The notes beneath the pieces are model-generated. The model was not told the origin of the DNA and searched no databases. It saw only the letters and a program-made list of their open reading frames with translations. A program made the position numbers and the translations under genes. DNA of 13,316 nt, taken from positions 1 to 13,316 of the forward strand of contig DAOWMZ010000016.1 of the NCBI GenBank assembly GCA_030642845.1, in the 5' to 3' direction. Below, one piece after another: positions 92 through 13,187 of the stretch. The stretch comes from Candidatus Zixiibacteriota bacterium (lineage in GTDB: Bacteria; Zixibacteria; MSB-5A5; GN15; FEB-12). Positions within the stretch are counted from its first letter, which is position 1, and the number at the start of each line of letters is the position of its first letter.

Positions 92-2521
92 TTGGTTAAT
101 AAATATTTAGGAGAGTTTAGAGATGTTATTAAGTATGGTAAATTAGCATTTGAGCATATTGATGATTTAAAAGATAAAATCAAATTAATTGATGTTTGTA
201 TTAATATGGCATATGCCTATGTATACCTTGGGAATTTTAGAGAAGCCAAAAAATACCAATTTAAATCTCTCTCATTGATACAATCAAATAATTTCTCAAA
301 TAATTTTATTAACTTCTATCATTGTACTGATATGATATATAGAGAAATTGGTGATTTAGATAGTGCAAGGAAAATAATATTAAATAAATTAAAGATGCTT
401 AATTCACCATTGTTTGATGATATTAAAGGAAATTCATTTCTGGATTTAGCTGTAATATCATTTTATAAAAGTGATGCTAAAGAAAGTGAATTATATTTAG
501 AAAAAGCAAAAAATATATTTACAGCATTGTGTAATGATTCATCTCTCTTAAGAGTTCAATTTTGGAATGTACTTTCCCAACACTATTATAGGGATTCTCC
601 TAAATACAAGAAATTAATTATTCTATTATCTAAGTTCTTGGAGATTAATAACAACTATTATGCAGCATTATGTTTTTACCATATTGTTATTAATAAACCT
701 TCTGAAGTAATTATAGATACAAATATCATTAAGAGAATTAGAGATTTTGTTCAAGACTCTAAGGCTCCCTTATTCAACGCAGTATCTTATTTAGTAAATT
801 CATTAAAAGAAGAAGAAAACATCCATGGATTATATGAGTACAAACAATGCTATAAGATATTTGATAAAATCAATGCGAAATATTTAGCATGTATTACTTG
901 TGAGAAAATTGCAGATATATATTATTCTGAAATAAAAGAAAAAATCGCGATGAAGTTTTATAATCGAGCTAAATTTATCGCTGAGAGTATAAGTAACAAA
1001 ATAATATCAGATAGGTTAACAAAGAAAATAGAATCCAATAGTTATTCAGATAAAGAGAGATTAGATATAATAAAGTCCATGTATGGAATCTCTAAAATTA
1101 TTGGTAATTTAAAAAACCATGATGAAGCTGTTCAGGAAGTAGTACAGTATGCGATTGATCAAACTGGTGCTGAACGAGGAGTCTTACTTACTAAGGTAAA
1201 TGGTTCAAAAAAACTAAAAATTGAAGCACTATTAAACTGTGATGATGATAGCTTGGCTGACATTGTTGACTTTAGTAAATCTATTCCTGATCATGTTGAT
1301 CTTAAACAATTACCATTAATAATTGAAAATGCAGTTAATGATAAAAGAACAAAAAACTATAAGAGCATTATAAAAAATAATATTCTATCTGTTATATGTA
1401 TTCCTTTAAAGATTACTGATTCATGCACAGGTATTCTATATCTTGATCATCATACAATACCAGCATTATTTGATGAAGGAGATATTTTGTATGTTTCAGC
1501 AATTGCGATTATACTGGGCAATATACTTTCATCAATAATGGACTTTAAAGATATAAGCATAATAAATCGTCAATTGGTAGCAGAAATTAGTTCTCAAGAT
1601 AATTATTATAATTTTGTTGGTAAAGATCCAGTTGTGAAAGAACTTTTTAGTAGATTACCTGAGATAGCAATGACAGATGCTCCTGTTTTATTAATTGGTG
1701 AAAGTGGTACTGGTAAAGAAATAATTACAAACAATATTAATAAATTAAGTAATAGAAGTGATAAACCATTAGTTAAAGTAAATTGTGCTGCTATTTCTGA
1801 TACTCTAATTGAAAGTGAACTTTTTGGGATTTCAAAAAATGTTGCAACCGGGGTAGATAAAAGAGATGGAAAGTTTGCTGCAGCAGATGGAGGTTCTATC
1901 TTTTTTGATGAAATTGGGGATATGCCATTATACATTCAAGCTAAGGTTTTAAGAGTCATTGAATATGGAGAGTATTATAGAGTTGGAAGTAATAAACCAG
2001 CTTTTACAGATGTAAGATATATTTATGCAACAAATAAGAATATTGAACAATTAATAAAAGAGAAGAAGTTTCGTGAAGATCTTTATTATAGAATTAATAC
2101 TATTGCTATTAATATTCCTCCTTTAAGAGATAGACCAGGAGATATTAATATACTTCTTGATTATTTTCTAAATAAATATAGAAAGGGATTAAATTCATCT
2201 GTATTTACTTTAGATGCTTTAACAGCATTAAATCTTTATAATTGGCCGGGTAATGTTAGAGAATTAAAAAATATTATTGAGAGGTGTTGTATCTTTTATG
2301 GTGGGAATAAAATTGATTTTCAACAATTACCTTCTACAATTAAAGAATATGTACCTGCCATTGATGATAAGAAAAAATTAGAATCAATAGAAAAGATAAA
2401 AATCATTAATGTTTTAAATAAATATAATGGAAATATCACTAAAGCAGCAGAAGCATTAGGAATGCCAAGAACAACTCTGAATTATAAAATTAAAATTTTA
2501 AATATTCGAAAAGATATATAA
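92..2521 (+). CDS. TPR-GAF sigma-54-type transcriptional activator (AAA+ domain, Fis-type HTH), probably N-terminally truncated
   Basis: Cytoplasmic enhancer-binding activator. Residues 1-320 are alpha-helical with TPR-like units (for example 'AYVYLGNFREAKKY' near 41-55 and 'IADIYYSEIKEKIAMKFYNRA' near 277-297). A GAF-like sensor spans about 325-485. The sigma-54-interacting AAA+ domain spans about 506-735, with Walker A GESGTGKE at 536-543, Walker B FFDEIGD (D606/E607), arginine-finger-like FREDLYYRI and 'WPGNVRELKN'. A Fis-type HTH closes the protein at about 768-804 ('GNITKAAEALGMPRTTLNYKIK'). The sigma-54-contacting GAFTGA loop is replaced by NVATGV at 583-588, so normal sigma-54 contact is uncertain. 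The only start is a TTG without a good ribosome site, 16 bases after an in-frame TAA (74-76), and the first in-frame ATG is at 206. Related regulators usually have more TPRs, so 5' loss is likely. Bases 1-91 hold no other gene I can support. Domain calls are secure; start and target are not. Confidence 0.9.
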   Translation: MVNKYLGEFRDVIKYGKLAFEHIDDLKDKIKLIDVCINMAYAYVYLGNFREAKKYQFKSLSLIQSNNFSNNFINFYHCTDMIYREIGDLDSARKIILNKLKMLNSPLFDDIKGNSFLDLAVISFYKSDAKESELYLEKAKNIFTALCNDSSLLRVQFWNVLSQHYYRDSPKYKKLIILLSKFLEINNNYYAALCFYHIVINKPSEVIIDTNIIKRIRDFVQDSKAPLFNAVSYLVNSLKEEENIHGLYEYKQCYKIFDKINAKYLACITCEKIADIYYSEIKEKIAMKFYNRAKFIAESISNKIISDRLTKKIESNSYSDKERLDIIKSMYGISKIIGNLKNHDEAVQEVVQYAIDQTGAERGVLLTKVNGSKKLKIEALLNCDDDSLADIVDFSKSIPDHVDLKQLPLIIENAVNDKRTKNYKSIIKNNILSVICIPLKITDSCTGILYLDHHTIPALFDEGDILYVSAIAIILGNILSSIMDFKDISIINRQLVAEISSQDNYYNFVGKDPVVKELFSRLPEIAMTDAPVLLIGESGTGKEIITNNINKLSNRSDKPLVKVNCAAISDTLIESELFGISKNVATGVDKRDGKFAAADGGSIFFDEIGDMPLYIQAKVLRVIEYGEYYRVGSNKPAFTDVRYIYATNKNIEQLIKEKKFREDLYYRINTIAINIPPLRDRPGDINILLDYFLNKYRKGLNSSVFTLDALTALNLYNWPGNVRELKNIIERCCIFYGGNKIDFQQLPSTIKEYVPAIDDKKKLESIEKIKIINVLNKYNGNITKAAEALGMPRTTLNYKIKILNIRKDI

Positions 2522-2540
2522 CCGCTCCTTTATGACCAAC

Positions 2541-2567
2541 TGACAAAAATCATTGCTATATTTGTCA
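2541..2567. promoter_or_regulatory. Inverted repeat TGACAAA-N13-TTTGTCA, candidate activator site
   Basis: A perfect 7-base inverted repeat starts 20 bases after the activator stop codon and about 155 bases upstream of the -24/-12 element. That is the normal distance for a sigma-54 enhancer. Further GTCAAT copies lie at 2564, 2618 and 2630, the last two 12 bases apart. Its left arm shares ACTGACA with the dyads at 3697 and 4567. Binding by a protein is inferred only. Confidence 0.35.
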
Positions 2568-2573
2568 ATCGTA

Positions 2574-2703
2574 TCGCATTTGATTTAATAGACTAACATT
2601 TATTGAATGCGAAGACTGTCAATTTATTCGTCAATCAATTCTATTTATAAATTCCATCAATTGATGTAATGCGGTGTAGTATTACAAGATACAAGAGAAT
2701 GCG
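2574..2703. promoter_or_regulatory. Cluster of AATGCG motifs upstream of the secreted-peptide gene
   Basis: TCGCATT (2574-2580) faces GAATGCGA (2605-2612) as an inverted pair, and TAATGCGG (2667-2674) and GAATGCGT (2697-2704) follow. The same octamer, GAATGCGA, occurs twice upstream of the second sigma-54-like promoter at 12807-12825. Elsewhere in the window AATGCG is scattered singly in coding DNA. The clustering in the two comparable promoter regions suggests a regulator binding site. Confidence 0.4.
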
Positions 2704-2718
2704 TAGGCTGATTTAAAC

Positions 2719-2735
2719 AGGCATGGAATTTGATT
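2719..2735 (+). promoter_or_regulatory. Sigma-54-like -24/-12 promoter
   Basis: The element reads AGGCATGGAATTTGATT. GG is at 2720-2721, followed by exactly ten bases and GA at 2732-2733, compared with the consensus TGGCAC-N5-TTGC. The -24 half (GGCAT) and the TTG of the -12 half match; the usual C after TTG is A. Transcription would begin near 2744, giving a leader of about 32 bases to the ATG at 2776. A sigma-54-type activator gene lies directly upstream. The -12 mismatch keeps confidence moderate. Confidence 0.5.
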
Positions 2736-2775
2736 AACTCTGTTTTGTAAATAAACACAAAACAAAGGGAGTCAA

Positions 2776-3030
2776 ATGATGAAAAACAAACGATTCACAT
2801 TCTTAATTGTAAGCTTTTGTATCTATCTTCTTGCAACAAGCTTTATTGGAACAATTGGAACACCTGTTACAGCTTATGCTGATGGAGATCCATTCCCTCC
2901 CCCACCAGATTCAATACCTGAGGGTGGTAAAACATCAGATACAACATTATCAGGACCTGAAGAAAACCGACAAGAAAATGAGATGTCAATACTTGATATG
3001 TTGTTGTGGTTAGTAACTGTTAAAATATAG
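2776..3030 (+). CDS. Small secreted proline-rich pre-peptide (84 residues), function unknown
   Basis: I do not recognise a family. The protein starts with a classical signal peptide: basic MMKNKR, a hydrophobic stretch of about 22 residues, then AYA before DGDPFPPPPD, giving a predicted cut after residue 35. The mature part, about 49 residues, has a PPPP run, an acidic polar middle (EENRQENE) and a hydrophobic C-terminal helix (MLLWLV). A GGGAG ribosome site lies 5-6 bases upstream of ATG 2776; ATG 2779 is the alternative start. It has its own sigma-54-like promoter and a strong terminator, so it is a single-gene transcript directly downstream of the TPR activator gene. It could be an exported signal peptide, a bacteriocin-like peptide or a small envelope protein; the sequence does not decide between these. 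Confidence 0.75.
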   Translation: MMKNKRFTFLIVSFCIYLLATSFIGTIGTPVTAYADGDPFPPPPDSIPEGGKTSDTTLSGPEENRQENEMSILDMLLWLVTVKI

Positions 3031-3034
3031 GAAT

Positions 3035-3059
3035 AAGAGGGATTTATTCCCTCTTTTTT
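3035..3059 (+). terminator. Rho-independent terminator of the secreted-peptide gene
   Basis: The 8-bp stem AAGAGGGA (3035-3042) / TCCCTCTT (3048-3055) has a 5-base loop and runs into six T residues. It begins five bases after the TAG stop and ends only seven bases before the next start codon. Confidence 0.85.
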
Positions 3060-3065
3060 ATTATT

Positions 3066-3680
3066 ATGAAGAGTTTTCAAAAGAAAATATTACTCTATAA
3101 TCTATTTCACAATCGAAGAGTTATTACAATTGATACAATTAAAAATGTATGTAATGTGTCTGAGAGGACTGCATATAGATATATAAATCAACTCTCTGAA
3201 ATAAATGTTCCAATATATTATGATAAGGAATTGGGAGGTTATTGTCTAAACAGGGATACTGAAATCAATGATATTAATGATCTTGATGACATTATCTTGA
3301 TAATTGTAAGTCTAAAATCTTTGTTTAAATTAGTTAATAATTCTTACAAAGTGAAAATAGATAAATTAATAACAACATTATTAGTAAAACAAAAATATTC
3401 ATTAGAAGAAATATTTCAATCTTTTAATGTCTATTTTGATAATAATCATCAAACTGAGGATTATTCTAAGCTGTTAACATCATTGTTACTTTATTCTGCT
3501 ATGAAGTTTAAGAAAAAAATAAATGTTACACTAAATGATGAAAACATATCTGATAATATTGAATTCATCGAGAATCCTGATATAATATTTGAGAATAGAT
3601 GGAAGATCTCAGATCATGCCAAAAACTTAGAGGATTATAATATTGATGATATATTGATGGTCACATTTGAAAAAAATTAG
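3066..3680 (+). CDS. HTH_11 (DeoR/WYL-like) transcriptional regulator
   Basis: A 204-residue DNA-binding protein. Residues 1-62 form an HTH_11-type winged helix; 'VCNVSERTAYRYINQLSEI' is the recognition region and 'PIYYDKELGGYCLNRD' the wing. The rest is a helical linker and a C-terminal region ending 'ENRWKISDHAKNLEDYNIDDI', which faintly recalls the end of WYL-domain regulators but lacks the WYL motif. The gene is extremely AT-rich. It has no visible ribosome site, unlike its neighbours, and its ATG follows the upstream terminator almost immediately, so it depends on read-through or on a promoter inside the previous gene. The CTGACAG dyad starts 17 bases after its stop and may be its operator (inference). 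The HTH call is firm; ligand and targets are unknown. Confidence 0.75.
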   Translation: MKSFQKKILLYNLFHNRRVITIDTIKNVCNVSERTAYRYINQLSEINVPIYYDKELGGYCLNRDTEINDINDLDDIILIIVSLKSLFKLVNNSYKVKIDKLITTLLVKQKYSLEEIFQSFNVYFDNNHQTEDYSKLLTSLLLYSAMKFKKKINVTLNDENISDNIEFIENPDIIFENRWKISDHAKNLEDYNIDDILMVTFEKN

Positions 3681-3696
3681 AAAAATATTCCCTATA

Positions 3697-3730
3697 ACTG
3701 ACAGAAACTGGCAGTGAGATATATTATACT
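3697..3730 (+). promoter_or_regulatory. CTGACAG-N3-CTGGCAG dyad overlapping a possible promoter
   Basis: ACTGACAG (3697-3704) and CTGGCAGT (3708-3715) form an inverted repeat with one mismatch and a 3-base spacer. CTGACA, then about 18 bases, then TATTAT gives a plausible -35/-10 pair, with the dyad covering the -35. ATACTC/GAGTAT at 3726-3744 can form a small hairpin. The same dyad occurs at 4568-4584. Both precede small, now broken, genes. The rest of 3745-3836 shows nothing I can name. Confidence 0.45.
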
Positions 3731-3836
3731 CGTATCGAGAGTATGGAGAAGGGGGGAGGCTTCTTGGATGTAAGGGTGTCTCGGTTATGAATTATTTACA
3801 AAGATGTGATTATTAATATTAATCTTTAGGGGTTCT

Positions 3837-4046
3837 ATGATAATTAAAATTGGTGACCGATTTGAAGAGGGCGAAATATGTTCTGAAACCGGTGTTTATC
3901 ATTTTGATGGTTATGTTGATGGCTCACAATACCCTCGACCAAAACTTTAAGATAGTATTATTAAAGTAAAAAAGGGTCAAGAATTTCCGGAAATAAAGAC
4001 ATTAAAAAGAAAAATTATGTGGGAATTAATTAGTAAGCATTATTAA
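3837..4046 (+). pseudogene. YjzC-like small protein, broken by an in-frame TAA
   Basis: The first 37 codons encode 'MIIKIGDRFEEGEI' and 'GVYHFDGYVDGSQYP', then TAA at 3948-3950. The same frame continues for 31 codons ('IIKVKKGQEFPEI' and 'MWELISKHY') to TAA at 4044-4046. Joined, the two halves have the order of the small YjzC-like proteins: GE..P..GVY..DGYVDG, then a strand with ..KGE.FPPI, then a final W-containing strand. An AGGGG ribosome-site-like sequence lies just upstream of the ATG. The homology across the stop shows that the two pieces were one gene of about 69 codons. Family assignment is from memory of the motif order and is moderately sure. The parent family's function is unknown. 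Confidence 0.6.
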
Positions 4047-4110
4047 TATTGTAAAATTGAAAAAATCAAAATAATTAATGTTTTTTTGATAAATCTGATA
4101 TTATAAAAAG

Positions 4111-4162
4111 TCCGCTCAAAACAGTATATATTACTGTTTGGTTATTAAGAACAAGGAGCGGA
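4111..4162 (+). promoter_or_regulatory. Hairpin leader hiding the ribosome site of the IS110-type stub
   Basis: TCCGCTC (4111-4117) is complementary to GAGCGGA (4156-4162), which contains much of the ribosome site of the transposase ATG at 4164. Inside lies a second perfect hairpin, AAACAGTA (4119-4126) / TACTGTTT (4132-4139). Transcripts entering from outside would fold and block translation, a known protective feature of insertion sequences. The left end of the element probably lies near here. In IS110 elements this non-coding end can also carry the bridge RNA; I cannot tell whether any of it remains. Confidence 0.5.
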
Positions 4163-4163
4163 T

Positions 4164-4337
4164 ATGTTACAAAGCTATTTGGGCATTGATGTCCACAAAC
4201 GTCGATGTGTATTTACGGAGATTGATAGTTTAGGCAAAGTGATTCAAAGAGGTAATTTTGATAACAATTATGAAGAATTATCAGATTTTGTTTCAAAATT
4301 ACGTGGGAATGAGCATAGGGTTAGTATTGATATATAG
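4164..4337 (+). mobile_element. IS110-family transposase, N-terminal remnant (57 codons)
   Basis: The ORF encodes 'MLQSYLGIDVHKRRCVF' followed by 'TEIDSLGKVIQRGNF', typical of the start of IS110-family DEDD recombinases, where the D of GIDVHK is the first catalytic acidic residue. It stops after 57 codons ('RVSIDI'), whereas complete IS110 proteins have roughly 300-400 residues, so the remaining catalytic residues and the C-terminal serine domain are gone. The ribosome site AAGGAGCGG is good but sequestered (see 4111-4162). No transposase sequence continues downstream in any forward frame that I can read, so the element was cut by a deletion near 4330. It is not mobile by itself. Confidence 0.75.
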
Positions 4338-4674
4338 TATTAATAAACCCTGGAAACAGAAATGGAAACGGAAAGAATAGTATAAAACAATGGAGATTAA
4401 TACTTCGAATTTAATAATAATTATATAGTCTTAATTTTCATTGAATAATATTTAATCAATTAATCCTATCTAATATAGCAACTTTCTTATGTACTGAATG
4501 AAACTATCAGTAAAATTGAAATATAAGAAAAAATAACCAAAAATATTTTAGATTATTTTCACTTCCACTGACAGGTTCTGTCAGGGGTATTATGTATATT
4601 TATCTGCATTAATATATCCATCATGGGCGACTTACTCTTGATTCTAATATTAAAAATGGGATCGGAGTTGTAGT
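4338..4674. other. AT-rich intergenic stretch after the IS stub
   Basis: No coding region is supported. Apart from the CTGACAG dyad and promoter-like sequence at 4567-4596, I see only AT-rich DNA without clear repeats. The right-hand end of the insertion element is not recognisable. Confidence 0.5.
4567..4596 (+). promoter_or_regulatory. Second CTGACAG-N3-CTGTCAG dyad, with a possible promoter
   Basis: CTGACAG (4568-4574) and CTGTCAG (4578-4584) form a perfect 7-base inverted repeat around GTT. CTGACA followed by TATGTA after 17 bases, or TATTAT after 14, may be the -35/-10 pair. It lies about 100 bases upstream of the small gene at 4675, comparable to the copy at 3697 upstream of the gene at 3837. 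Confidence 0.45.
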
Positions 4675-4806
4675 ATGAATGAATTCTTAATTGGATTGAA
4701 AAGTATGCTTACTCAATTCAAACTAGATCCATCTAATGATTAGGCAATTCTAATTTTTATTGTGTGTTGTGTTATCGTGGGTGCAATTATTTTGTTTATT
4801 ACATAA
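4675..4806 (+). pseudogene. Small single-pass membrane protein interrupted by an in-frame TAG
   Basis: A GGAG ribosome site at 4664-4667 precedes ATG 4675. Twenty-two codons ('MNEFLIGLKSMLTQFKLD') end at TAG 4741-4743. The frame then stays open for 20 codons encoding an almost purely hydrophobic segment ('AILIFIVCCVIVGAIILFIT') and ends at TAA 4804-4806. Without the TAG this would be a 43-residue protein: an amphipathic N-terminus followed by one membrane helix. The length and hydrophobicity of the second half make a point-mutated gene more likely than chance. It lies 33 bases upstream of the large surface-protein gene and might have been co-transcribed with it. No family is recognised. Confidence 0.5.
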
Positions 4807-4839
4807 ATATAAGTACTACAAAAAATCAGGAGGGCTCCG

Positions 4840-7800
4840 ATGAAAAGACTAATGCTTCAATTAATTATGGTTTCAGTGACGCTTTGTTGCGTTCTGGGAA
4901 GTTCATCCGTGTTAGCTGATGAACCGCTTGATAGTGCCAGCGTTCCCGATCCTTCGGATTCGCTGCTTCAGGTTCTTTTACAATCATCCGGGAATGGCAT
5001 AACTTTACCATCATCCGGGACGGTTGAGTTAACTATTATGAAAACCGAGACATCATCCCTTGAAGATGTTTTGGCATTGACTTCCCCGAGTTATCAGACA
5101 CTAACGTCAAATGCTCGCAACTGCGTCGGTTGCAAATGGGACTTGGGATGGTTCGAAGCCGAATCGGAATTGGTGTTTACTTTAGATAATCAAAACCCCA
5201 AAACCGGTCCAAATCAGGTTACAATTTATCCCAGGATCACTGGGAATAGTCCACTGTGGTCATTAAACTTTGAGGATTGGAAAGACTCAGACTGGGATGA
5301 TGTAATAGCCACGGTTCGTTTCTATCCTGATACAATAGTCAAAGTAAAACAGATTACGTTTCTCGATGATATCAATATTGAAAACATTGATGACTTGATT
5401 TGGGATGTAACTTACGATGACAAAGGAGAAATCCTTTCCATATGGAAAGGTGGTCCAGTCGCTGATGCAATGAGAAATTCAACTGTTGCTGGAAAGGCGA
5501 AATTGGAAGTTGAATTGGAGGGTTTTCCTGCGCTTCCATCAACCCCACTCCAGGTGGAGTGTTCCTGGCACTTCTCTTCTCAGTCATGGGGAGGCGGCTC
5601 ATTCGAAGGTAATAAGTTACTTGATGCCAATAATGAAGTTTTAATCAATATGCCGCAGGTTATAGGACAATATAATCTTACGCTTTATTTTGAAATTCGT
5701 GACAATGATGGTAATTACATTTCCTACCAGGATTTTCCGGGCTTAACTACGTTTGTAACCTGGGATAATCCGAATCTTATAGCTTCAGAGATTAAAGCTA
5801 ATAGGCTGGATAAAGCCGTTAACTGGGCTTCACCCGCGAATACCGAAGTAAGTATGGTTGACGGTCTTAATGCGGGGATTTACTATTACGGACAAAACCA
5901 CTGGTTGTATCGTGATCTCCACCCTGGATGGATGTCATTAGTTGACGGAGCAATCCAACAAGGAAACTGTTTTAGTTTCTCAGAAGTTTGGGAAAAACTA
6001 GGTGCGTTATTAGGGTCGGATAATACAGAACGATTTGGTCCATATAAAGGCGAATACCTTGAAGGATTCCTTACTAAGCCTGCCACTTCAATGGATGGAC
6101 TTAATGGGAACACATATCCCTGTGAGGATCCAATAGTGATTGATCGATGGTTGTTTGGAAGTCATGTAATTGGCTCTTTCACTAAACCAAATTCAATGTA
6201 TAAATATTATGATCCAACCTTCGGGGATAAATATTCTACCAGTGCTCAATATGTACAATGGAATATTATTGGTCCCAATCCAAATGGAACAGGTTTACTA
6301 GACGACGGAAGTCATCTTATTCATATATTGAGCGGTCCTACAGCTACATGGCTATGGGGGCTATCCTGTTATGAAGATATTCTGAACGGGACAATGGCAA
6401 TGAACGAAGAGCATAATAGTCCGTTTATTTCAAATATGTCATCCGATTCAGGTGTTGATACTAATGGTGATGGCCTATTTGAATATTTGCATATTGGGAT
6501 AGATGTTGATGTAGACATAGCAGGTGACTATACAATTATGGCTCGCTTAATGTCAAATGACTCACTAATAACTAAAAGATCACATATGTATTCTACTATG
6601 ATAAGTTCGGTATTCTCTCAGCAATGCGATGTTGGTATAGAGACCTTCGATCTCCAATTTAGCGGGCAGGATATTTATAAAAGTGGCTTTGACGGAAATT
6701 ATCAGGTAGTCATGAGTTTAACTGATGAAAACATCTCCCTTATTGACACAGCTTCATTTTTCACAACAGCATATGTTCATACTCAATTCAGAGAGGTCAC
6801 CGGAGAGATTACAGGTGCTTCTGACTATGGCGAAGATATCGACAATGACGGATTATTCGATTATTTGACCGTAGATGTGTCACTGGAAACTGTTGAATCA
6901 GGCTGGTATAGAGTACAAGGTTTTCTCATTACAGACTCTACTTATTTTTCTTCTACCAGTGAAAACTCGACATTGCAAATAGGAGCGAATACTGTAACAA
7001 TTAGGTTCGACGGTAATGAAATTCGAGATTATGGTATTGACGCGCCCTATACACTAAAAGTAAATCTATATGCTCCTGATGGTTACACATTTGATTCACC
7101 CCTATTTCAAACCTCTTCCTATAGTTACACCGATTTCGATAGTCGTGTAGCCCGATTTACCGGTTCGTTTACCGACCATGCAACCGACACCAATTTAAAT
7201 GGTAAGTATGATATTCTTACTATAGAAGCAGACATTGAGGTTGAACAGGCTGGTGACTATCTTGTATCAGCATGGCTCCAATCCCAAGCAGGAGAAGACA
7301 TTGCCAGTGCAAGAACTAATCTGTCAGTTTCTGCTGGAACTCATACGGTTGCCGTCGATTTTGACGGAAAGTATGTGTATCAACATGGTGTTAATGGCCC
7401 ATATGAATTGATTTATATAGTAATTGAAGATGCGGATGGAAAAAAACTGGATGAATTAGAACTGGGTTACTCTACTTATGGATATAGTTTTTCGACTTTC
7501 GAACCGCCATCCGTTACAGTTACAGGTACATTCAACGATTATGGATGGTACTCCTGGATACAGCCTTTCTGGTGGTTGGCAATTGATATCGAAATAAACA
7601 GTGTTAAAGGGGGGTATGTTTCTGCCAGTGCTGAGTTATACAGCGTCAGTGGGGAATATATAGTAGCATCATCCACTTTACAATATATGTTACCAAACTA
7701 CCCTCAAATGGTTCGGCTACTATTTGATGGGCGACGCATTTACGGAAATCAGGAGGACGGACCATACGATTTACGAAACCTCGTAGTTTATCATGAGGAT

Positions 7801-9231
7801 ACTCCGTCGGAAGTTGCCCGAGTAGCTGAAGCCTACACCACATCCGAATATAGCTTTACGCAATTTTCTCTTGCAGCAGTGGTGGATGGAACGGTCAGAG
7901 ATGCTGATGATATACCGATTGAAGGTGCAATATTATCAATAAACACATGGGATGAAGATGTTTCGGATGAAAACGGAGGATATAGGTTGTCCGTACTTGA
8001 CAACGGAAACTACACCATTGATATAGAAAGTCCGGAAACGATGGAAATTGATGCTTGGGTTATTTATGTCAATGGTGACTCGGTCGGTATTGCTGATTCG
8101 GTTTTTCTCCCTCTGGTTGTCGGCACGGTAACACAAGTTGATTTCAAGGCTCTTCCATCTGCCGGTGGGAGTGGTATCATTGAGGGGAGTATATTTGGTC
8201 CATCAGGTGGATTATTGGGTGTAACAATCGACCTCTTCGATTGGAATGATATGTTATATGAAGTGACTGTTACCGATGCGACTGGTACATATTCTTATTT
8301 AGAAGTTCCGACCGGAGATTATAATGTAGCCGTTGTTACTCCTCTGGGATTCATTGCGAATCCTGAAATTCAACCGGTTAATGTTATATCCGGTTCTGTT
8401 AATGTGATCGATTTCAATCTTGACCAGATCGAAATTGTGGATTCGCGAAGAGGCAAAGGGTATTGGAAACATCAGGTAAATGTACATTTAAGCGGAAAAG
8501 GCAACGCGCATGAAAGTCTGGAGGAAATGTCAAATTATCTGGATCAGATTCGTTTACATTTTAACAATAACCTCGAACATCCTGTGATTATATTTGAGGT
8601 TGATCAACCAGCCAACCAAACCGACAGTCTGGAATCGCTACGTGCTCTTTTATCCGCTAACGGTGGTGACATGAATATCAAAGCTCGACAACACCTTGTA
8701 ACTTTGTTATTAAATGTGGCTTCGCTCAAATTACATCAAACGACCATCGTTACTGTAGACGGAGCCACCGTTTCACAAGCCATTACCCATTGTTACGATT
8801 TGATCATTGATTCTGATGAATCAAACGACGAGACCGCCAAGGATATAGCAGAAAAGATTAACAATGGCCAGCTTGTCGATGCGGGAGAAGTTCCATTATC
8901 GACTCCAGTGGTGGCATATAAAGGAATCATGGAAGATGAAAGTACTATACCTTACCGATTCTTTTTGTCTGAGAATTACCCAAACCCTTTCAATCCGAAT
9001 ACGGAAATCAGTTTCACTTTACCAGAGGCAGTATTTACCAATCTTAAAATCTATAATATATTGGGTCAACATATCGTAACTCTTGTAGACGATTATCTTG
9101 ATCCGGGGATTCACACGGTAACTTGGAATGGTACTTCTTCGACTAATGTTATTGTGGCAAGCGGTATTTATTTCTATCATTTTGAAGCAGGTGATTTTGT
9201 TGAAACCAAAAAAATGATCCTTCTTAAATAA
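4840..9231 (+). CDS. Large secreted multidomain protein with a transglutaminase-like domain and a C-terminal sorting domain
   Basis: A 1463-residue exported protein. The signal peptide is 'MKRLMLQLIMVSVTLCC...VLA', cut near residue 26. An N-terminal region of about 350 residues precedes a transglutaminase-like stretch with 'QGNCFSF' (C377), 'GSHVIGSF' (H442) and 'YYDPTFG' (D458), a plausible Cys-His-Asp triad. Four beta-type repeats of about 120-130 residues follow, starting near 535, 660, 780 and 900; each has a G-Y strand, an 'FDG..I/VY..G..GPY' motif and a 'YS[YF]..F' end, and the first three open with a calcium-loop-like D.N.(D/N)G. Two carboxypeptidase-regulatory-like folds lie near 1013-1100 and 1111-1195, and a helical 'GYWKHQ' region near 1200-1370. 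The C-terminus (1377-1463, 'ENYPNPFNPNTEISF' to 'KKMILLK') is a T9SS/FlgD-like sorting domain. AGGAGGG gives a strong ribosome site. Likely a cell-surface enzyme or adhesin; the substrate is unknown. Confidence 0.88.
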   Translation: MKRLMLQLIMVSVTLCCVLGSSSVLADEPLDSASVPDPSDSLLQVLLQSSGNGITLPSSGTVELTIMKTETSSLEDVLALTSPSYQTLTSNARNCVGCKWDLGWFEAESELVFTLDNQNPKTGPNQVTIYPRITGNSPLWSLNFEDWKDSDWDDVIATVRFYPDTIVKVKQITFLDDINIENIDDLIWDVTYDDKGEILSIWKGGPVADAMRNSTVAGKAKLEVELEGFPALPSTPLQVECSWHFSSQSWGGGSFEGNKLLDANNEVLINMPQVIGQYNLTLYFEIRDNDGNYISYQDFPGLTTFVTWDNPNLIASEIKANRLDKAVNWASPANTEVSMVDGLNAGIYYYGQNHWLYRDLHPGWMSLVDGAIQQGNCFSFSEVWEKLGALLGSDNTERFGPYKGEYLEGFLTKPATSMDGLNGNTYPCEDPIVIDRWLFGSHVIGSFTKPNSMYKYYDPTFGDKYSTSAQYVQWNIIGPNPNGTGLLDDGSHLIHILSGPTATWLWGLSCYEDILNGTMAMNEEHNSPFISNMSSDSGVDTNGDGLFEYLHIGIDVDVDIAGDYTIMARLMSNDSLITKRSHMYSTMISSVFSQQCDVGIETFDLQFSGQDIYKSGFDGNYQVVMSLTDENISLIDTASFFTTAYVHTQFREVTGEITGASDYGEDIDNDGLFDYLTVDVSLETVESGWYRVQGFLITDSTYFSSTSENSTLQIGANTVTIRFDGNEIRDYGIDAPYTLKVNLYAPDGYTFDSPLFQTSSYSYTDFDSRVARFTGSFTDHATDTNLNGKYDILTIEADIEVEQAGDYLVSAWLQSQAGEDIASARTNLSVSAGTHTVAVDFDGKYVYQHGVNGPYELIYIVIEDADGKKLDELELGYSTYGYSFSTFEPPSVTVTGTFNDYGWYSWIQPFWWLAIDIEINSVKGGYVSASAELYSVSGEYIVASSTLQYMLPNYPQMVRLLFDGRRIYGNQEDGPYDLRNLVVYHEDTPSEVARVAEAYTTSEYSFTQFSLAAVVDGTVRDADDIPIEGAILSINTWDEDVSDENGGYRLSVLDNGNYTIDIESPETMEIDAWVIYVNGDSVGIADSVFLPLVVGTVTQVDFKALPSAGGSGIIEGSIFGPSGGLLGVTIDLFDWNDMLYEVTVTDATGTYSYLEVPTGDYNVAVVTPLGFIANPEIQPVNVISGSVNVIDFNLDQIEIVDSRRGKGYWKHQVNVHLSGKGNAHESLEEMSNYLDQIRLHFNNNLEHPVIIFEVDQPANQTDSLESLRALLSANGGDMNIKARQHLVTLLLNVASLKLHQTTIVTVDGATVSQAITHCYDLIIDSDESNDETAKDIAEKINNGQLVDAGEVPLSTPVVAYKGIMEDESTIPYRFFLSENYPNPFNPNTEISFTLPEAVFTNLKIYNILGQHIVTLVDDYLDPGIHTVTWNGTSSTNVIVASGIYFYHFEAGDFVETKKMILLK

Positions 9232-9257
9232 CTAAACCATTGACGAATCTTGTATTT

Positions 9258-9294
9258 AACCGGTAATCATTAATTATGATTACCGGTTTTTTTT
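9258..9294 (+). terminator. Strong rho-independent terminator after the surface-protein gene
   Basis: A perfect 13-bp stem, AACCGGTAATCAT (9258-9270) / ATGATTACCGGTT (9276-9288), has a 5-base loop and is followed by eight T residues (9287-9294). It begins 26 bases after the stop codon. Confidence 0.93.
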
Positions 9295-9323
9295 AAAGTC
9301 TTCGTTTCCTTGTTTTCTATAGA

Positions 9324-9512
9324 GAAGAGATATTCAATATTCTTGGTCAAAGGGTAAATAATTTAATAGATCAAGATCTGGAATCTGGTATACATAAAAT
9401 CCAATGGGATAGTAAGAATTCTAATAGTGAACTAGTATCATCAGGCATATATTTCTATAGGGTGGAAGCAGGTGACATGATAATTACAAAAAAGATGACT
9501 ATAATAAAATAA
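9324..9512 (+). pseudogene. Orphan C-terminal sorting-domain fragment
   Basis: An open frame after the TAA at 9294-9296 encodes, from about 9324, 'EIFNILGQRVNNLIDQDL', then 'SSGIYFYRVEAGDMIITKK' and 'MTIIK', ending at TAA 9510-9512. This aligns along its length with the last 62 or so residues of the protein encoded at 4840-9231 ('KIYNILGQHIV', 'ASGIYFYHFEAGDFVETKK'). There is no start codon with a ribosome site, no signal peptide and no passenger domain. It is the 3' remnant of a second surface-protein gene, left by recombination or deletion. The DNA is more AT-rich than the intact copy, so it is probably a diverged paralogue, not a recent duplicate. Confidence 0.75.
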
Positions 9513-9523
9513 AGAGGTGAATT

Positions 9524-9595
9524 ATGAAAAACACTAGAATTCTTATAATACTATTATCTTTAATCTTAGTAATTAGTATATTTTGGCTGAATTAA
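9524..9595 (+). CDS. Tiny hydrophobic ORF resembling an isolated signal peptide (23 residues)
   Basis: It encodes 'MKNTRILIILLSLILVISIF' plus WLN, with an AAGAGGTGA ribosome site eight or so bases upstream, and starts 12 bases after the orphan sorting-domain fragment. It has a basic start and a long hydrophobic core but no cleavage site or mature part. It could be a real membrane micro-peptide, or the start of an exported protein whose remainder was lost. No family is recognised. Confidence 0.4.
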   Translation: MKNTRILIILLSLILVISIFWLN

Positions 9596-9663
9596 TGGGT
9601 AATCAACACTTCAGGCGGGTATGTTGAAATTGTCTGTTGGTTCTTCTTGTTTGCTGATATTGT

Positions 9664-9682
9664 CTGGTATTACCTGGTATTA
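9664..9682 (+). repeat. Tandem 9-mer CTGGTATTA
   Basis: CTGGTATTA occurs at 9664-9672 and 9674-9682, separated by one C. TGTCTGGT at 9661-9668 recurs at 9769-9776 and, inverted, at 9722-9729, linking this repeat to the structured element just downstream. Confidence 0.5.
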
Positions 9683-9692
9683 GGGTTATGAG

Positions 9693-9799
9693 CCTGTTCA
9701 AAAGTCCGAACAACAGGAAGCACCAGACACTAACCCGTAGTAATAGCAACTATTTACGGGAGACACAGTGTCTGGTGTTTCTTCTTATTATCTCCTGTT
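9693..9799. other. Nested palindromic element, candidate structured RNA or small mobile/regulatory element
   Basis: CACCAGACACT (9721-9731) pairs perfectly with AGTGTCTGGTG (9767-9777), extendable to about 15 bp with one G-U pair. Inside, CCCGTA (9734-9739) pairs with TACGGG (9755-9760). Outside, AACAGGA (9712-9718) pairs with TCCTGTT (9793-9799), but CCTGTT at 9693-9698 can instead pair with AACAGG, so two outer structures exclude each other. Downstream of the main stem the DNA is T-rich (9778-9793). There is no coding potential. A structured RNA, an attenuator or a small palindromic element would all fit. Surrounding bases 9596-9692 show only the 9-mer repeat. Confidence 0.5.
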
Positions 9800-10172
9800 T
9801 TGGCTAATTATGTTAGAAAATTGTTAGAAAGGGGTGTATGTTAACATAGAAGCAGTACTCCACGATAAAGAGGGCATTTTGTAATTTTCGATTGGATTAT
9901 AACCGCTATTTCTGGAAATGAATCCAGTTCCCAGCAAACATAATCAGATTTCGGCAATGACTATAACATAACTCAGATTTGCGTTTGAGGTTTGAAATTT
10001 CTATCTTATGATATTAAATGAGATAGTGTGGCAGTGTCAAAATAAATGAGGCGATTTGCCTATGGTGGCCAACGGATTTGCCTGCCAGTTAGCGGAAAGT
10101 AAGAGTTTGATACTGTCTTAATTCATGGGAATAGTGAAATTTGAATGTATGATTCAATTTTAAAAAGGAGGG
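9800..10172. other. Intergenic region before the chimeric regulator
   Basis: No gene is supported. TTGATA, 17 bases, AATAGT at about 10107-10135 is a weak sigma-70-like promoter candidate. Two GATTTGCC copies occur at 10053-10060 and 10074-10081. TGGCC-N8-TTTGC near 10065-10081 resembles a sigma-54 promoter but has 11 bases instead of ten between GG and GC. A strong GGAGGG ribosome site ends the region at 10167-10172. Confidence 0.35.
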
Positions 10173-12224
10173 ATGATGATTACTATTAAATCAACATTGC
10201 CATTAGTAGTTATTCTGGTAATGCTTATGTCGTTGGATGCTCGTCCCGAATGCGACTCAATTGAATATTTAACCGACATCAATACCGGTGATGCGGCCCT
10301 TGGAATATTCGTCAGAGGTAATCGTTTATATGTAGCAGACCGTGGATCAGGATTCAAGGTAATGAACATCAAAGACGCCAATAAACTTGTCCTTATGGGG
10401 AGCTATCTGGAACAAGGTCGATCACAGGCCCAGGATGTCTTTGTCTCTAGAAGCTTGGCATATGTGGCAGAGGGAGGAAGGGGATTTAGCATAATAGATG
10501 TAGCAGATCCATATAACCCAAGCTTGGTTCGATATGTTTCAAATCCCGGATTAAGCGGCGCTTATACTGATGTATATGTATCAGGTGACTACGCGTATTT
10601 CGCACATACTCCTCGCGGTTTATTAATATTCAATATTTCGAAGCTATCAAAACCAAAACTAGTAGGTGAATTCAAGGTTAGAAAAGCAGAAGTCGCAGAT
10701 GTATTTGTAAGGGGACGGTATGCTTACCTTGCGGTAACTAGTCATCAAAATCCATCAGGCACCGGATTACTAATCATTGATGTAACGAACCCAAGCAACC
10801 CTCTTTTAGTAAATAGTCTAAAGACTCCTGGGCAAGCCTTGAATTTATTTATAGCCGATGATTATGCCTATATCGCCGATTTGAGTGGTGGACTTCAAAT
10901 AGTTGACATATCCAATAGTTGGAATCCACGAACAGTTGGAACATGGGAGGGTGGGTCCGTCGCCAATGTCTGTGTATATAGTAATATCGCCAATGCTGTA
11001 GATCGATATAAGAACCGAGTGTACGCCATCGACGTAAGAAACCCTACATCCCCACATCTCATCTCTCAGTGTAGGATATACGGAGGTGCAAACATAGAGG
11101 GGAGGACAGCTCAAACATGTGATATCGGCGTAAAGGACGAGTATATCTATGTAGCAAATTGGAGAAAGATCAACATCCTAAAATGTGTTCCCAAAGAAAA
11201 AGCTCTTAAAAAAGGATTGAAAATTTCTCTTGAGATTGCTCCTGAATCGGCTCTTATCTCTCAGATTAAACGACTTTTTGGTGATCTCTATCTCGCAACT
11301 AACAAATACAAACTAGCTGATAAATACACCAAAGAAGCTCTTGTTGTTGCCGAGAAAATCGGTGAGAAAGTTGAAATCGCCGCCTGCTATAGAATCTTTG
11401 CTCAACTTGAGCATCGTAATGACAACGATAACAAATCCGCCCAGGCGGACAAGGCCAAAGAATACTACACTAAAGCAATCGACCTGTTCAAACTGATTGG
11501 GTCACGATACGAATTAGCGGTCACACAATATTTAGCGGCAACGAGTGGTTTGTATCACAACGGTGTGCGCCATGCTATGCTTTACATGACTCGTGACTAT
11601 TTTGAATCTGAAAATGTTAAACCTTATTTAAAGAAAATAGAGAAAGCATTAAAGAACCCAACTACCAAAGAGAAATTAAAACCAATCGCATCTGGTGCTC
11701 CGACTATTATTGCCGTTAACCCTCAGATGAAAAAACTGGTTGAGATAGCTGAGAATGTCGCTCAGTCGGATATGTCGGTTCTATTGACTGGCGAAACTGG
11801 CACTGGCAAAGACCTGATAGCGAGTTATATTCACCACGCCAGTTGCCGTGAAGGCGATTTTGTGGAATTTAACTGTCCACTCTTTTCTGATGGTCTTTTT
11901 GAATCGGAGCTTTTTGGCAGTGTCAAAGGAGCTTTCACCAGCGCAAACAAAGATCGAGTCGGGCGGGTAGAATTGGCTAACAACGGCACACTTTTCCTGA
12001 ATGAAATCAGCGAGATTCCTGTCCAGCAACAGGCTAAACTCTTACGAGTGATAGAAACAGGTGAATATGAAAAGGTCGGCTCAAGCAAAAAGCTAAAAAC
12101 CAACTGCCGTATAATTGTCGCTACAAATGTTGATTTGAAACAGAGAATATCAGATGGTAAATTCCGTGCTGATCTTTACCATAGGATTAATGAGATACCC
12201 TATTCATCTACCACCTCTGTGTGA
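10173..12224 (+). CDS. Chimeric, frameshifted gene: secreted LVIVD beta-propeller fused to a TPR/sigma-54 activator (5' part)
   Basis: Residues 1-25 are a signal peptide. Residues 40-335 hold six or seven LVIVD repeats (for example 'YVAEGGRGFSIIDVADPYNP', 'YIADLSGGLQIVDISNSWNP'), a surface propeller. At about residue 338-346 (nt 11184-11210) this passes without a linker into TPR helices ('LFGDLYLATNKYKLADKYTK', 'CYRIFAQLEHR', 'LIGSRYELAVTQYLAA') and then a sigma-54 AAA+ domain: Walker A GETGTGKD (540-547), GAFTSA (586-591) and Walker B LFLNEI with N610 where Asp is usual. An exported propeller and a cytoplasmic activator do not belong in one chain, so the ORF looks like a deletion fusion of two genes. 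It ends early after 'RINE' because of a one-base shift near 12195. ATG 10176 fits the GGAGGG ribosome site better than ATG 10173. Confidence 0.85.
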   Translation: MMITIKSTLPLVVILVMLMSLDARPECDSIEYLTDINTGDAALGIFVRGNRLYVADRGSGFKVMNIKDANKLVLMGSYLEQGRSQAQDVFVSRSLAYVAEGGRGFSIIDVADPYNPSLVRYVSNPGLSGAYTDVYVSGDYAYFAHTPRGLLIFNISKLSKPKLVGEFKVRKAEVADVFVRGRYAYLAVTSHQNPSGTGLLIIDVTNPSNPLLVNSLKTPGQALNLFIADDYAYIADLSGGLQIVDISNSWNPRTVGTWEGGSVANVCVYSNIANAVDRYKNRVYAIDVRNPTSPHLISQCRIYGGANIEGRTAQTCDIGVKDEYIYVANWRKINILKCVPKEKALKKGLKISLEIAPESALISQIKRLFGDLYLATNKYKLADKYTKEALVVAEKIGEKVEIAACYRIFAQLEHRNDNDNKSAQADKAKEYYTKAIDLFKLIGSRYELAVTQYLAATSGLYHNGVRHAMLYMTRDYFESENVKPYLKKIEKALKNPTTKEKLKPIASGAPTIIAVNPQMKKLVEIAENVAQSDMSVLLTGETGTGKDLIASYIHHASCREGDFVEFNCPLFSDGLFESELFGSVKGAFTSANKDRVGRVELANNGTLFLNEISEIPVQQQAKLLRVIETGEYEKVGSSKKLKTNCRIIVATNVDLKQRISDGKFRADLYHRINEIPYSSTTSV

Positions 12225-12591
12225 ACGAAAAGAAGATATCCCTGAACTGGTGAAGTATTTTATTAAAGAAGTTGGATTTAATGTTAACGGTCATAAGAAA
12301 CATGTTAACGATGTGATCCGCAAGTTAAGCCAGAATCACTGGACAGGTAATGTCAGAGAATTACTAAATGAGATTAGACGCTTGTATGCCACCAGCGATA
12401 AATCAATTGTAAAGATGATTGATTTGATAAATGAATCCCAACCTCAATCTGATAGTGATCAACTCCTGAATTTACTTGTAAAAGCAGATTGGAATCAAAG
12501 TGAAGTTGCCCGCCAACTCAATGTAAGCGAAACAACAATTCGTAAACGAATCAAAAAATACAATATTTCAAGACCTATTCAAATTAAATAA
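12154..12591 (+). CDS. 3' part of the frameshifted sigma-54 activator (end of AAA+ domain and HTH)
   Basis: Only the part from about 12196 is real protein: 'YPIHLPPLCERKEDIPELV' continues directly from 'DLYHRINE' of the upstream frame, as in sigma-54 activators (RLN.(F/Y)PI.LPPLRER..DIP). It then carries 'HWTGNVRELLNEIRRLY' and a Fis/HTH_8-type DNA-binding helix pair ('DWNQSEVARQLNVSETTIRK'). The shift needs one extra base in 12192-12200, for example the A at 12195. The ATG at 12154 lies in sequence that codes in the other frame and has no ribosome site, so separate translation is unlikely. With the shift repaired, the joined product would have about 805 residues. I regard the two pieces as one pseudogene, unless the shift is an assembly error. 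Confidence 0.8.
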   Translation: MVNSVLIFTIGLMRYPIHLPPLCERKEDIPELVKYFIKEVGFNVNGHKKHVNDVIRKLSQNHWTGNVRELLNEIRRLYATSDKSIVKMIDLINESQPQSDSDQLLNLLVKADWNQSEVARQLNVSETTIRKRIKKYNISRPIQIK

Positions 12592-12610
12592 CTATAGATA
12601 AGTATTTTCA

Positions 12611-12728
12611 CTCGAACCACTTCGATTCAAAACTCGAACCTATAAAAAACATCTCATCTCATTTTAATTAAACAAGTTATAAGGGTGCGAAAATCACCTC
12701 GAACCTTGCTCGAACTAAAACTCGAACC
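12611..12728. repeat. Two helically phased triads of (C)TCGAAC(C)
   Basis: TCGA cores begin at 12612, 12622 and 12634, and again at 12699, 12710 and 12722. Five of the six are CTCGAAC(C); the one at 12622 is degenerate (TTCGATT). Spacings inside the triads are 10/12 and 11/12 bases, about one DNA turn, and the two triads are offset by 87-88 bases. They lie about 110-225 bases upstream of the -24 element at 12836, the usual enhancer distance. Candidate binding array for an activator or repressor. Confidence 0.6.
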
Positions 12729-12730
12729 TT

Positions 12731-12755
12731 TGGGGGTGTTATCAATAATCCCCCA
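12731..12755 (+). terminator. Weak hairpin, TGGGGG/CCCCCA, possible terminator
   Basis: A 6-bp stem, TGGGGG (12731-12736) / CCCCCA (12750-12755), with a 13-base loop, is followed by T-rich but interrupted sequence. It is 140 bases downstream of the regulator stop. The loop is long and there is no clean T run, so it may only be an operator dyad. Confidence 0.3.
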
Positions 12756-12806
12756 TTAGATTTTAATCTTTATTTTCTTCACATTGTACTATTACACAGT
12801 AGCTTA

Positions 12807-12825
12807 TCGCATTCTTTTCGCATTC
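12807..12825. promoter_or_regulatory. Direct repeat of TCGCATTC, 11 bases apart
   Basis: TCGCATTC at 12807-12814 and 12818-12825 is the reverse complement of GAATGCGA found at 2605-2612. The pair ends 11 bases before the GG of the sigma-54-like promoter, on one face of the helix. Confidence 0.45.
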
Positions 12826-12834
12826 CAATCAAAT

Positions 12835-12851
12835 TGGCACGGTTTATGATA
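12835..12851 (+). promoter_or_regulatory. Second sigma-54-like -24/-12 promoter
   Basis: TGGCACGGTTTATGATA: the -24 part, TGGCACG, is a perfect consensus. GG at 12836-12837 is followed by ten bases and GA at 12848-12849, the same GA variant as the promoter at 2719. A start near 12860 would give a leader of about 330 bases before the gene at 13188. The ORF at 12897 within the leader lacks a placed ribosome site and is probably not real. Confidence 0.5.
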
Positions 12852-12989
12852 TACTATTATGCGTGACTCTTGGAAGGTGAAGAATTGGCTTCATAAATGG
12901 GTGTTCCCAATCCCTTTTTACTTATGTCTTTCTCTCAAAGGCATTGTATGATGTGTCATTTTCGTTTTTCAAGATATGGTGTGATACTC

Positions 12990-13015
12990 CTGGGTTCGGC
13001 TCATACCGAACCCAG
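12990..13015. other. Perfect 10-bp hairpin in the leader of the last gene
   Basis: CTGGGTTCGG (12990-12999) and CCGAACCCAG (13006-13015) pair perfectly around a 6-base loop. No T run follows, so it is not a typical terminator. It lies about 130 bases downstream of the proposed transcription start and 170 bases before ATG 13188. Possible leader regulation, RNA stability or processing element. Confidence 0.6.
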
Positions 13016-13187
13016 AGAGATTGAGCATATACTTAGAAGGGTGTGCTATTGTAACGTACTAAACGTAAATGATAATAAATCGTCTATGTATTAATAGGGT
13101 AGGCATAAGTTTTCGGAGGTTGATAAATAAGAAAAAATCAATTATTCTCTTTATGGTATATATTTACATTCAGGTACGGAGGTATTT

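Follow-up and report, generated by a model that had tools for sequence, protein, structure and literature searches.

A conserved unit of sigma54-type activator, small exported peptide and short regulator in Candidatus Zixiibacteriota

Introduction

The bacterial enhancer-binding proteins, such as NtrC, NifA and PspF, offer a close described parallel to the gene system analyzed here, a unit that we call module 1 and that lies at positions 92-3680 of a contig of Candidatus Zixiibacteriota (DAOWMZ010000016.1). The window, by which we mean this whole contig of 13,316 nucleotides, comes from an incomplete draft genome (2.15 Mb in 361 contigs, 72% complete). Module 1 comprises genes for a sigma54-type activator, a small exported peptide and a short regulator; a second sigma54-type activator gene, with the DNA behind it, forms module 2 at the other end of the window. 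A sequence-only reading of the contig had proposed that the two are one module present twice, under a shared regulator that reads the octamer GAATGCGA.

The module-1 activator resembles the enhancer-binding proteins in its Sigma54_activat AAA+ domain, its GAF domain, its Fis-type helix-turn-helix and the likely position of its sites upstream of a -24/-12 promoter. It differs from them in its kinase and TPR front, in having Ala or Val instead of the Phe of the GAFTGA loop (35 of the 37 loops read) and in its peptide-gene neighbor. The GAFTGA loop contacts sigma54, and published work holds its Phe to be essential throughout, Tyr being the one residue able to replace it (PMC7057263, PMC2941729, PMC9770992, PMC3162934).

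A TPR protein encoded beside a small exported product whose tail is hydrophobic is also the arrangement of the RRNPP receptors (Rap, NprR, PlcR, Rgg and AimR), and the alignment of the cassette's TPR model covers almost all of the Rap chain. RRNPP systems are described as having a small propeptide beside the receptor gene, a Sec signal peptide, a receptor of 250-500 residues and an oligopeptide importer (PMC10075063). The cassette protein, at about 1400 residues, lies outside that size range; it carries kinase and AAA+ domains, belongs to another phylum and has a candidate ligand, and an Opp-type binding protein is absent from 27 of 35 activator genomes.

The third gene recalls the WYL regulators (DriD, CapW, PafBC and BrxR) in its HTH_11 front and in a Foldseek match to them (E 6e-5). 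It differs from them in its length of about 205 residues, in that no WCX domain was found, in a WYL domain below Pfam detection and in a TM-score of only 0.27. Closer at hand is a family of TPR-sigma54 proteins of about 720 residues, which shares with the cassette the TPR and Sigma54 domains and, in many members, a sigma54-like element and exported products downstream, and which differs from it in its aromatic loop of GAFTGA/GAYTGA type, in other repeat words and in varied products. The parts of module 1 are of known kinds: an enhancer-binding protein, a WYL-like regulator and a small exported protein. Neither their combination nor the loop was found described in the literature searched. Nothing in that literature was found to join sigma-54 with RRNPP, TPR, pheromone or Zixibacteria, which is no proof of absence in print.

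Results

Conservation of the three-gene unit

Module 1 is an old conserved three-gene unit of Candidatus Zixiibacteriota. A search for its activator in 146 genomes, with the best place per genome retained, gave 30 loci including that of the window's own genome; L046 was dropped at a contig end, which leaves 29 that can be evaluated behind the activator. In 27 of these, the window counted, a protein of 73-90 residues starts 229-275 bases past the activator stop codon, and the next gene after it encodes a regulator of about 200 residues. L050 and L054 showed no peptide, and their regulators are short (85 and 101 residues); the peptide of L048 is doubtful. The peptide recurs in 10 of 12 further homologues of about 1400 residues and in six of eight more distant ones; a small propeptide gene stands directly beside the activator in 43 of the 49 evaluable loci. 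At L215 the activator frame is not cleanly read, and this locus, whose peptide and third gene were judged by eye, is left out of the promoter count given below.

The same unit emerged when a scan for the third gene was made across 84,980 species, each represented by one genome. Among the 50 loci obtained, the best 16 (L135-L150) all have the activator motif upstream and 15 have the peptide; many of them coincide with loci of the 146-genome search. The other 34 have no activator motif and are mostly 250-360 residues long, with two of about 210, and one of them that was tested, L154, is a complete HTH_11-WYL-WCX protein. The 16 named contigs that carry the cassette belong to Candidatus Zixiibacteriota (12), to GN15 (one) or to an entry named 'bacterium' only (three), and some of these are identical with places in genomes of the window's own family (L135, for instance, equals L037).

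A Phe-less loop in the activator

The module-1 activators are proteins of about 1400 residues with the domain order Pkinase-TPR-GAF-Sigma54_activat-HTH_8 in the window's relatives, and most full matches have an open frame of about that length; in the window copy the kinase half is not in frame on the contig. The Ser/Thr kinase motif HxDLKxxN is present in 13 of 14 aligned activators, and the Sigma54_activat AAA+ domain and the Fis-type helix-turn-helix are present in the window protein as well as in L039 and L056. Our loop table has 40 rows, of which 37 could be read (L219, L221 and L224 are the unread rows). The residue in place of the GAFTGA Phe is Ala in 31, Val in four and Phe in two; the loop Thr is kept in all 37 and none has a deletion, with Ser in L046 and L226, which are outside the table. 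The loop is aromatic in all nine that were read among 12 other activators of the window's own genome (Phe) and in all 19 read among 20 module-2 proteins (Phe or Tyr), and the distant homologues L228 and L229, which have no peptide, retain a normal GAFTGA-type loop. What surprised us most in this analysis was a conserved clade in which a Phe-less loop goes together with sigma54-like promoters.

The promoter behind the activator gene

The GG-N10-GA elements that the sequence-only reading had placed behind both activator genes, AGGCATGGAATTTGA and TGGCACGGTTTATGA (Table 1), are indeed there. Upstream of the peptide, a -24/-12 element above the score limit is present at every one of the 36 loci whose peptide start could be placed, against 10.4 expected, a few being weak (L062 and L213, for example). 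Its -12 dinucleotide, the last base of which was unweighted in scoring, is GA in 19, GT in 13 and GC in four. As a yardstick, we looked at 30 flgB promoters among 54 genomes with a flgB match (the own locus and 29 relatives), and all 30 read GC. The GA at -12 had been called unusual, and by this comparison with flgB a -12 other than GC is a genuine, conserved trait of module 1; it is not specific to the cassette, given that six of nine noncoding sigma54 sites in the own genome read GA or GT and that the module-2 family has GT in five, GC in four and GA in two of the 11 elements above the limit (16 loci scored).

That GA or GT is a mere habit of the genome, as the six own sites might suggest, was corrected in part by the uniform GC at flgB. 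One of the own GA/GT sites precedes a fliR-like gene (L209, by eye); GC thus does not hold for all flagellar genes. Within the cassettes, both Phe loops go with GC and 30 of 35 Phe-less loops with GA or GT (Fisher 0.03). We rejected the idea that the loop alone explains the -12 letters, since the aromatic loops of module 2 go with a mixture of all three dinucleotides. Nor is a second sigma54 the explanation: rpoN has a match in 71 of 79 genomes and is single in 68 of the 71 (G035 has two, and those of G063 and G073 are in pieces), its region I is alike in 29 of 30 loci, and a second sigma54 sought among the 79 genomes was seen in G035 only.

Elsewhere in the own genome (L023, C86:2437), a promoter with almost the letters of the module-1 element, TGGCATGGAATTTGA, lies between an upstream activator gene (NtrC type, by eye) and a lipoprotein-like gene downstream.

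Candidate activator sites

There is good evidence, from sequence comparison, that the module-1 activator binds sites behind its own gene. The word TTRCCR occurs at +5 to +40 past the activator stop codon in 22 of 40 loci, in 12 of them as a pair 8 bases apart, and YGGYAA occurs at +81 to +113 in 17 of 27 loci; TTTGCC has 30 copies over the 27 regions, compared with 5.0 expected. It is the association with the recognition helix that argues for binding: TTRCCR is present in 16 of 18 loci with a PLST-type helix versus six of 22 others (Fisher 1.2e-4). The helix of the window protein differs (PRTTLNYKI), and its sites are probably of the TGACAA/GTCAAT type. A further word, GTAATGCG, occurs in four of the 27 regions, a count that none of 200 simulations reached when this word alone was considered; we dropped it, as some 8-letter word reaches four in half of the simulations.

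The octamer and the second module

The positions reported for GAATGCGA hold: exact copies start at 2605 (+), 10248 (+), 12807 (-) and 12818 (-), and there is no further copy in the window, the site at 2574 being TCGCATTT, with a one-letter mismatch. Four copies exceed chance for that single word (0 of 200 shuffles reach four), which was picked post hoc. The two intergenic stretches have 11 octamers in common, near the Markov mean of 10.3 (889 of 2000 simulations reach 11), and a common octamer with three copies in total arises in 878 of 2000. Across the genome there are 55 copies of GAATGCGA against 11 of the reversed control, and 44 of the 51 outside the window fall in open frames of at least 100 residues. 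Among the 27 module-1 regions only the window's own has the octamer; its core AATGCG is in six, against 3.4 expected (22 of 200 simulations reach six).

A shared regulator acting through GAATGCGA had been expected to leave the octamer ahead of TGGCAY-N5-TTGM elements, in front of signal-peptide genes. Within 200 bases upstream, the octamer is present at two of nine noncoding own-genome sites of the form TGGCAY-N5-TTG[ACT], neither of them before a signal-peptide gene; one precedes flgB and the other another flagellar-type gene (named by eye), and both have GC at -12. The octamer is therefore somewhat enriched at the genome's own sigma54 sites, although not in the way predicted. At most 100 bases before the flgB element, AATGCG occurs in eight of 30 loci (L230 and L231-L259) versus 1.9 expected and 0 of 300 simulations, one of the eight being the own locus that had prompted the test. 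It is possible that AATGCG near flgB is the site of a flagellar regulator, and GAATGCGA may be a site of that flagellar type that happens to lie near both window promoters as well. We rejected it as a site common to the two modules on the grounds of its chance-level sharing, its presence in a single module-1 region and the other words of module 2; the flagellar-type lead that remains is weak. Most likely, GAATGCGA is not the link that joins the modules.

The two modules also differ in their activators, which belong to different families with different recognition helices, contrary to the proposal of one module present twice. The module-2 activator is a member of the 720-residue family, in which matches at E 1e-75 or better are 41-59% identical over the searched piece; several genomes have paralogues. 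In the window it is a chimera: an LVIVD beta-propeller front is fused to it in frame and the frame breaks near 12200, which points to a decayed or broken family member or a misassembly. The order of activator, sites, promoter and signal-peptide gene, said to be identical in both, is as described in module 1. In module 2 it is weaker, because the activator is chimeric and frame-broken and the signal-peptide gene starts about 340 bases past the element; no signal peptide is visible by eye in the first frame past that element (12897-13094). The proposal that each promoter leads to a secreted product is borne out broadly, in that a sigma54-like promoter and an exported product often follow in both activator families; the first frame of window module 2 does not conform.

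Arrays of seven-letter repeats, related to one another and different in wording, are a feature of this second family. We tested 13 of 19 relatives (L099, L102, L103, L106, L112 and L114 were excluded for a short, broken or doubtful frame) and found arrays in nine, strong in L097, L098, L101, L109 and L111 (0-6 of 200 simulations), weaker in four and absent in the remaining four. The words are of ACGCA or TTCGTA type, and none equals the CTCGAAC repeated in the window. Nearest to GAATGCGA are the array of L097, AATGCGTAC, and the TCGCATT copies that directly precede the promoter of L111, a placement shared with the octamer pair of the window's module 2, and these two relatives give the idea of a shared regulator slightly more weight. 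Products downstream vary (by eye, lipoproteins, small Cys-rich proteins and others).

The exported peptide, the hairpin and the third gene

The cassette peptides consist of a predicted signal peptide, an acidic linker enriched in P, T, G, S and D, and an aliphatic tail of about ten residues led by D or E. A simple rule finds a cleavage-like motif in 30 of 33 peptides, and behind residue 36 the same 33 have 23 K/R versus 231 D/E. The acidic tail residue lies precisely ten from the C-terminus in 19 of 33 peptides and nine or ten from it in 23 (21 and 27 of 43 in a wider set), and the run that follows is hydrophobic with polar positions 3 and 10 counted from the end. In the nearest relative found, P0002 (73% identical), the linker has drifted, and three of the last 22 residues are changed. 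The window peptide matches no Pfam or NCBIfam family. At L044 (G020) two near-identical peptide genes lie in tandem ahead of the third gene, differing mainly in the tail.

A hairpin with z of -2.8 or lower lies between the peptide and third genes in 17 of 25 folded loci. The third protein has no WYL or WCX domain match; HTH_11 alone is found, below the cut-off in L135 and L142. A search for co-variation between the peptide tail and the TPR domain gave no signal. The signal-peptide part correlates with TPR distance (partial correlations of 0.20 at p 0.004 and 0.23 at p 0.001) and with GAF distance (0.15, p 0.024), which we take as shared descent.

Discussion

Based on these comparisons, we consider it likely that module 1 is a self-contained sigma54 cassette, that module 2 belongs to another family with its own array, and that GAATGCGA does not link them. 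The kinase-TPR-GAF-AAA+ protein would bind directly behind its own gene, at sites of TTTRCC/YGGYAA type in many relatives, and switch on the sigma54 promoter about 190 bases downstream, which would yield the exported peptide of about 80 residues and, beyond the hairpin, the short WYL-like regulator. To do so it would use its Phe-less loop (A/V-T-G/D-V) on the genome's sigma54, and its input would come through the kinase, the TPR or the GAF domain. Module 2 would be read through its CTCGAAC array.

Several observations weigh against this reading. The third gene is present in only nine of the 12 further loci and one of the eight distant ones, and the own genome, at 72% completeness, has no rpoN match. 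TTRCCR is missing from the window copy, in whose region no repeated word exceeds chance; among the further loci, only two of 11 have TTRCCR. Finally, the literature reports a Phe-less GAFTGA loop to be inactive (PMC7057263, PMC2941729, PMC9770992), and the cassette protein might not be an activator at all.

What the peptide does is a separate matter, and we give slightly less than an even chance to its being an effector (membrane-active, envelope or antimicrobial) while the activator senses an unrelated cue by its kinase, TPR or GAF domain. The signal peptide, the acidic linker and the hydrophobic C-terminal run with its two polar positions all fit such a product, as does the scarcity of Opp-type importers. 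The pairing of activator and peptide is nevertheless tighter than an effector would need, and the lack of any family match for the window peptide does not help. Alternatively, the exported tail may be the ligand of the activator's TPR domain, in the manner of RRNPP systems, in which case the cassette would sense what it produces itself, for quorum sensing or to monitor export. In a fold search with the TPR model, Rap and NprR rows came out on top, tied with LGN and none clearly above unrelated TPR proteins; such likeness makes peptide feedback possible. Its classical form is disfavored by the scarcity of Opp-type importers, for which SBP_bac_5 is found in only eight of the 35 activator genomes (four of the 17 that are at least 95% complete), and we hold peptide feedback to be a tentative minority view. 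That an entire class of diderm bacteria has a peptide-sensing circuit working through sigma54, in which a Rap-like TPR domain reads its own peptide tail and a Phe-less loop opens promoters that have mostly lost the C at -12, appears quite improbable to us.

The missing Phe could also mean that the protein acts as a repressor, or as the silent partner of a second enhancer protein that works at this promoter. Published accounts in which only Tyr can replace the Phe (PMC7057263, PMC2941729) speak for this, as do proteins lacking the loop that are reported to regulate sigma70 promoters (PMC10274813, PMC3162934). We think it unlikely, considering that the loop Thr is invariant in the table, that the loop has suffered no deletion and that every scored cassette locus has a sigma54-like element. 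Less still can be said for one regulator that reads GAATGCGA in both modules. Three of the ten genome copies outside long frames do lie in the two regions, a reader of flagellar kind may exist to judge from the flgB loci and the two own sigma54 sites, and L097 and L111 come close in their wording. Sharing at chance level, near absence from the module-1 regions with only a slight excess of AATGCG, and other words in the remaining module-2 arrays make it very unlikely. The case shows that a recurring word can mislead, as the better supported sites came from relatives and not from the two window copies.

Were the cassette proteins to activate sigma54 polymerase, the aromatic-residue rule for GAFTGA would need revision, and annotation filters based on the loop, such as those described in PMC3162934, may miss a clade. 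Were the peptide a signal, peptide sensing by TPR receptors would reach beyond Gram-positive bacteria, for which the literature consulted describes it. In both cases, the conserved activator-peptide pair of this uncultured phylum can now be tested on the basis of the present description.

Features of the window

Table 1. Coordinates of the module-1 and module-2 features in the window
Feature	Position	Strand	Remark
Module-1 activator, C-terminal 809 residues (TPR, GAF, Sigma54_activat, AAA lid, HTH_8)	92..2521	+	Pfam
NVATGV codons in place of the GAFTGA loop (Phe to Ala)	1838..1855	+	
TGACCAA/TGACAA pair, 8 bases apart, offsets +11 and +19, where relatives carry TTRCCR	2533..2546	.	likely own activator site, predicted
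TTGTCA (2562) and GTCAAT (2564, 2618, 2630)	2562..2635	.	possible activator sites
Inverted pair TCGCATTT / GAATGCGA	2574..2612	.	sites of the sequence-only reading; octamer absent from the regions of 26 relatives
TAATGCGG at 2667, GAATGCGT at 2697	2667..2704	+	
Sigma54-like promoter AGGCATGGAATTTGA, -12 GA	2719..2733	+	
Signal-peptide protein, 84 residues (83 from the second ATG)	2776..3030	+	
C-terminal tail DMLLWLVTVKI, an acidic residue and ten mostly aliphatic ones	2995..3027	+	frequent family signature, similar in P0002
Hairpin and T-run between peptide and third gene, terminator- or attenuator-like	3035..3060	+	z -5.4
Third gene, HTH_11 regulator of 204 residues with a WYL-like fold, in which no WCX domain was found	3066..3680	+	
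First frame of the module-2 activator: TPR-Sigma54 part of the family of about 720 residues, fused to an LVIVD propeller front	10173..12224	+	
Module-2 activator, second frame: AAA lid, HTH_8	12154..12591	+	
CTCGAAC five times (12611, 12633, 12698, 12709, 12721)	12611..12727	+	likely module-2 activator array; 0/200 simulations
GAATGCGA twice, 11 bases apart, adjoining the module-2 promoter	12807..12825	-	
Sigma54-like element TGGCACGGTTTATGA, -12 GA	12835..12849	+	
Start of signal-peptide gene (MKRMIILIISAFFVVTISFAQ...), truncated where the contig stops	13188..13316	+	

Between the two modules, positions 4164-4337 hold a fragment that resembles, by eye, the front of an IS110-type transposase and reaches a stop after about 58 codons. 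Positions 4840-9231 encode a secreted protein of 1463 residues with the C-terminal sorting domain Por_Secre_tail, and at about 9330-9513 there is, by eye, a second, headless copy of a Por_Secre_tail-like tail.

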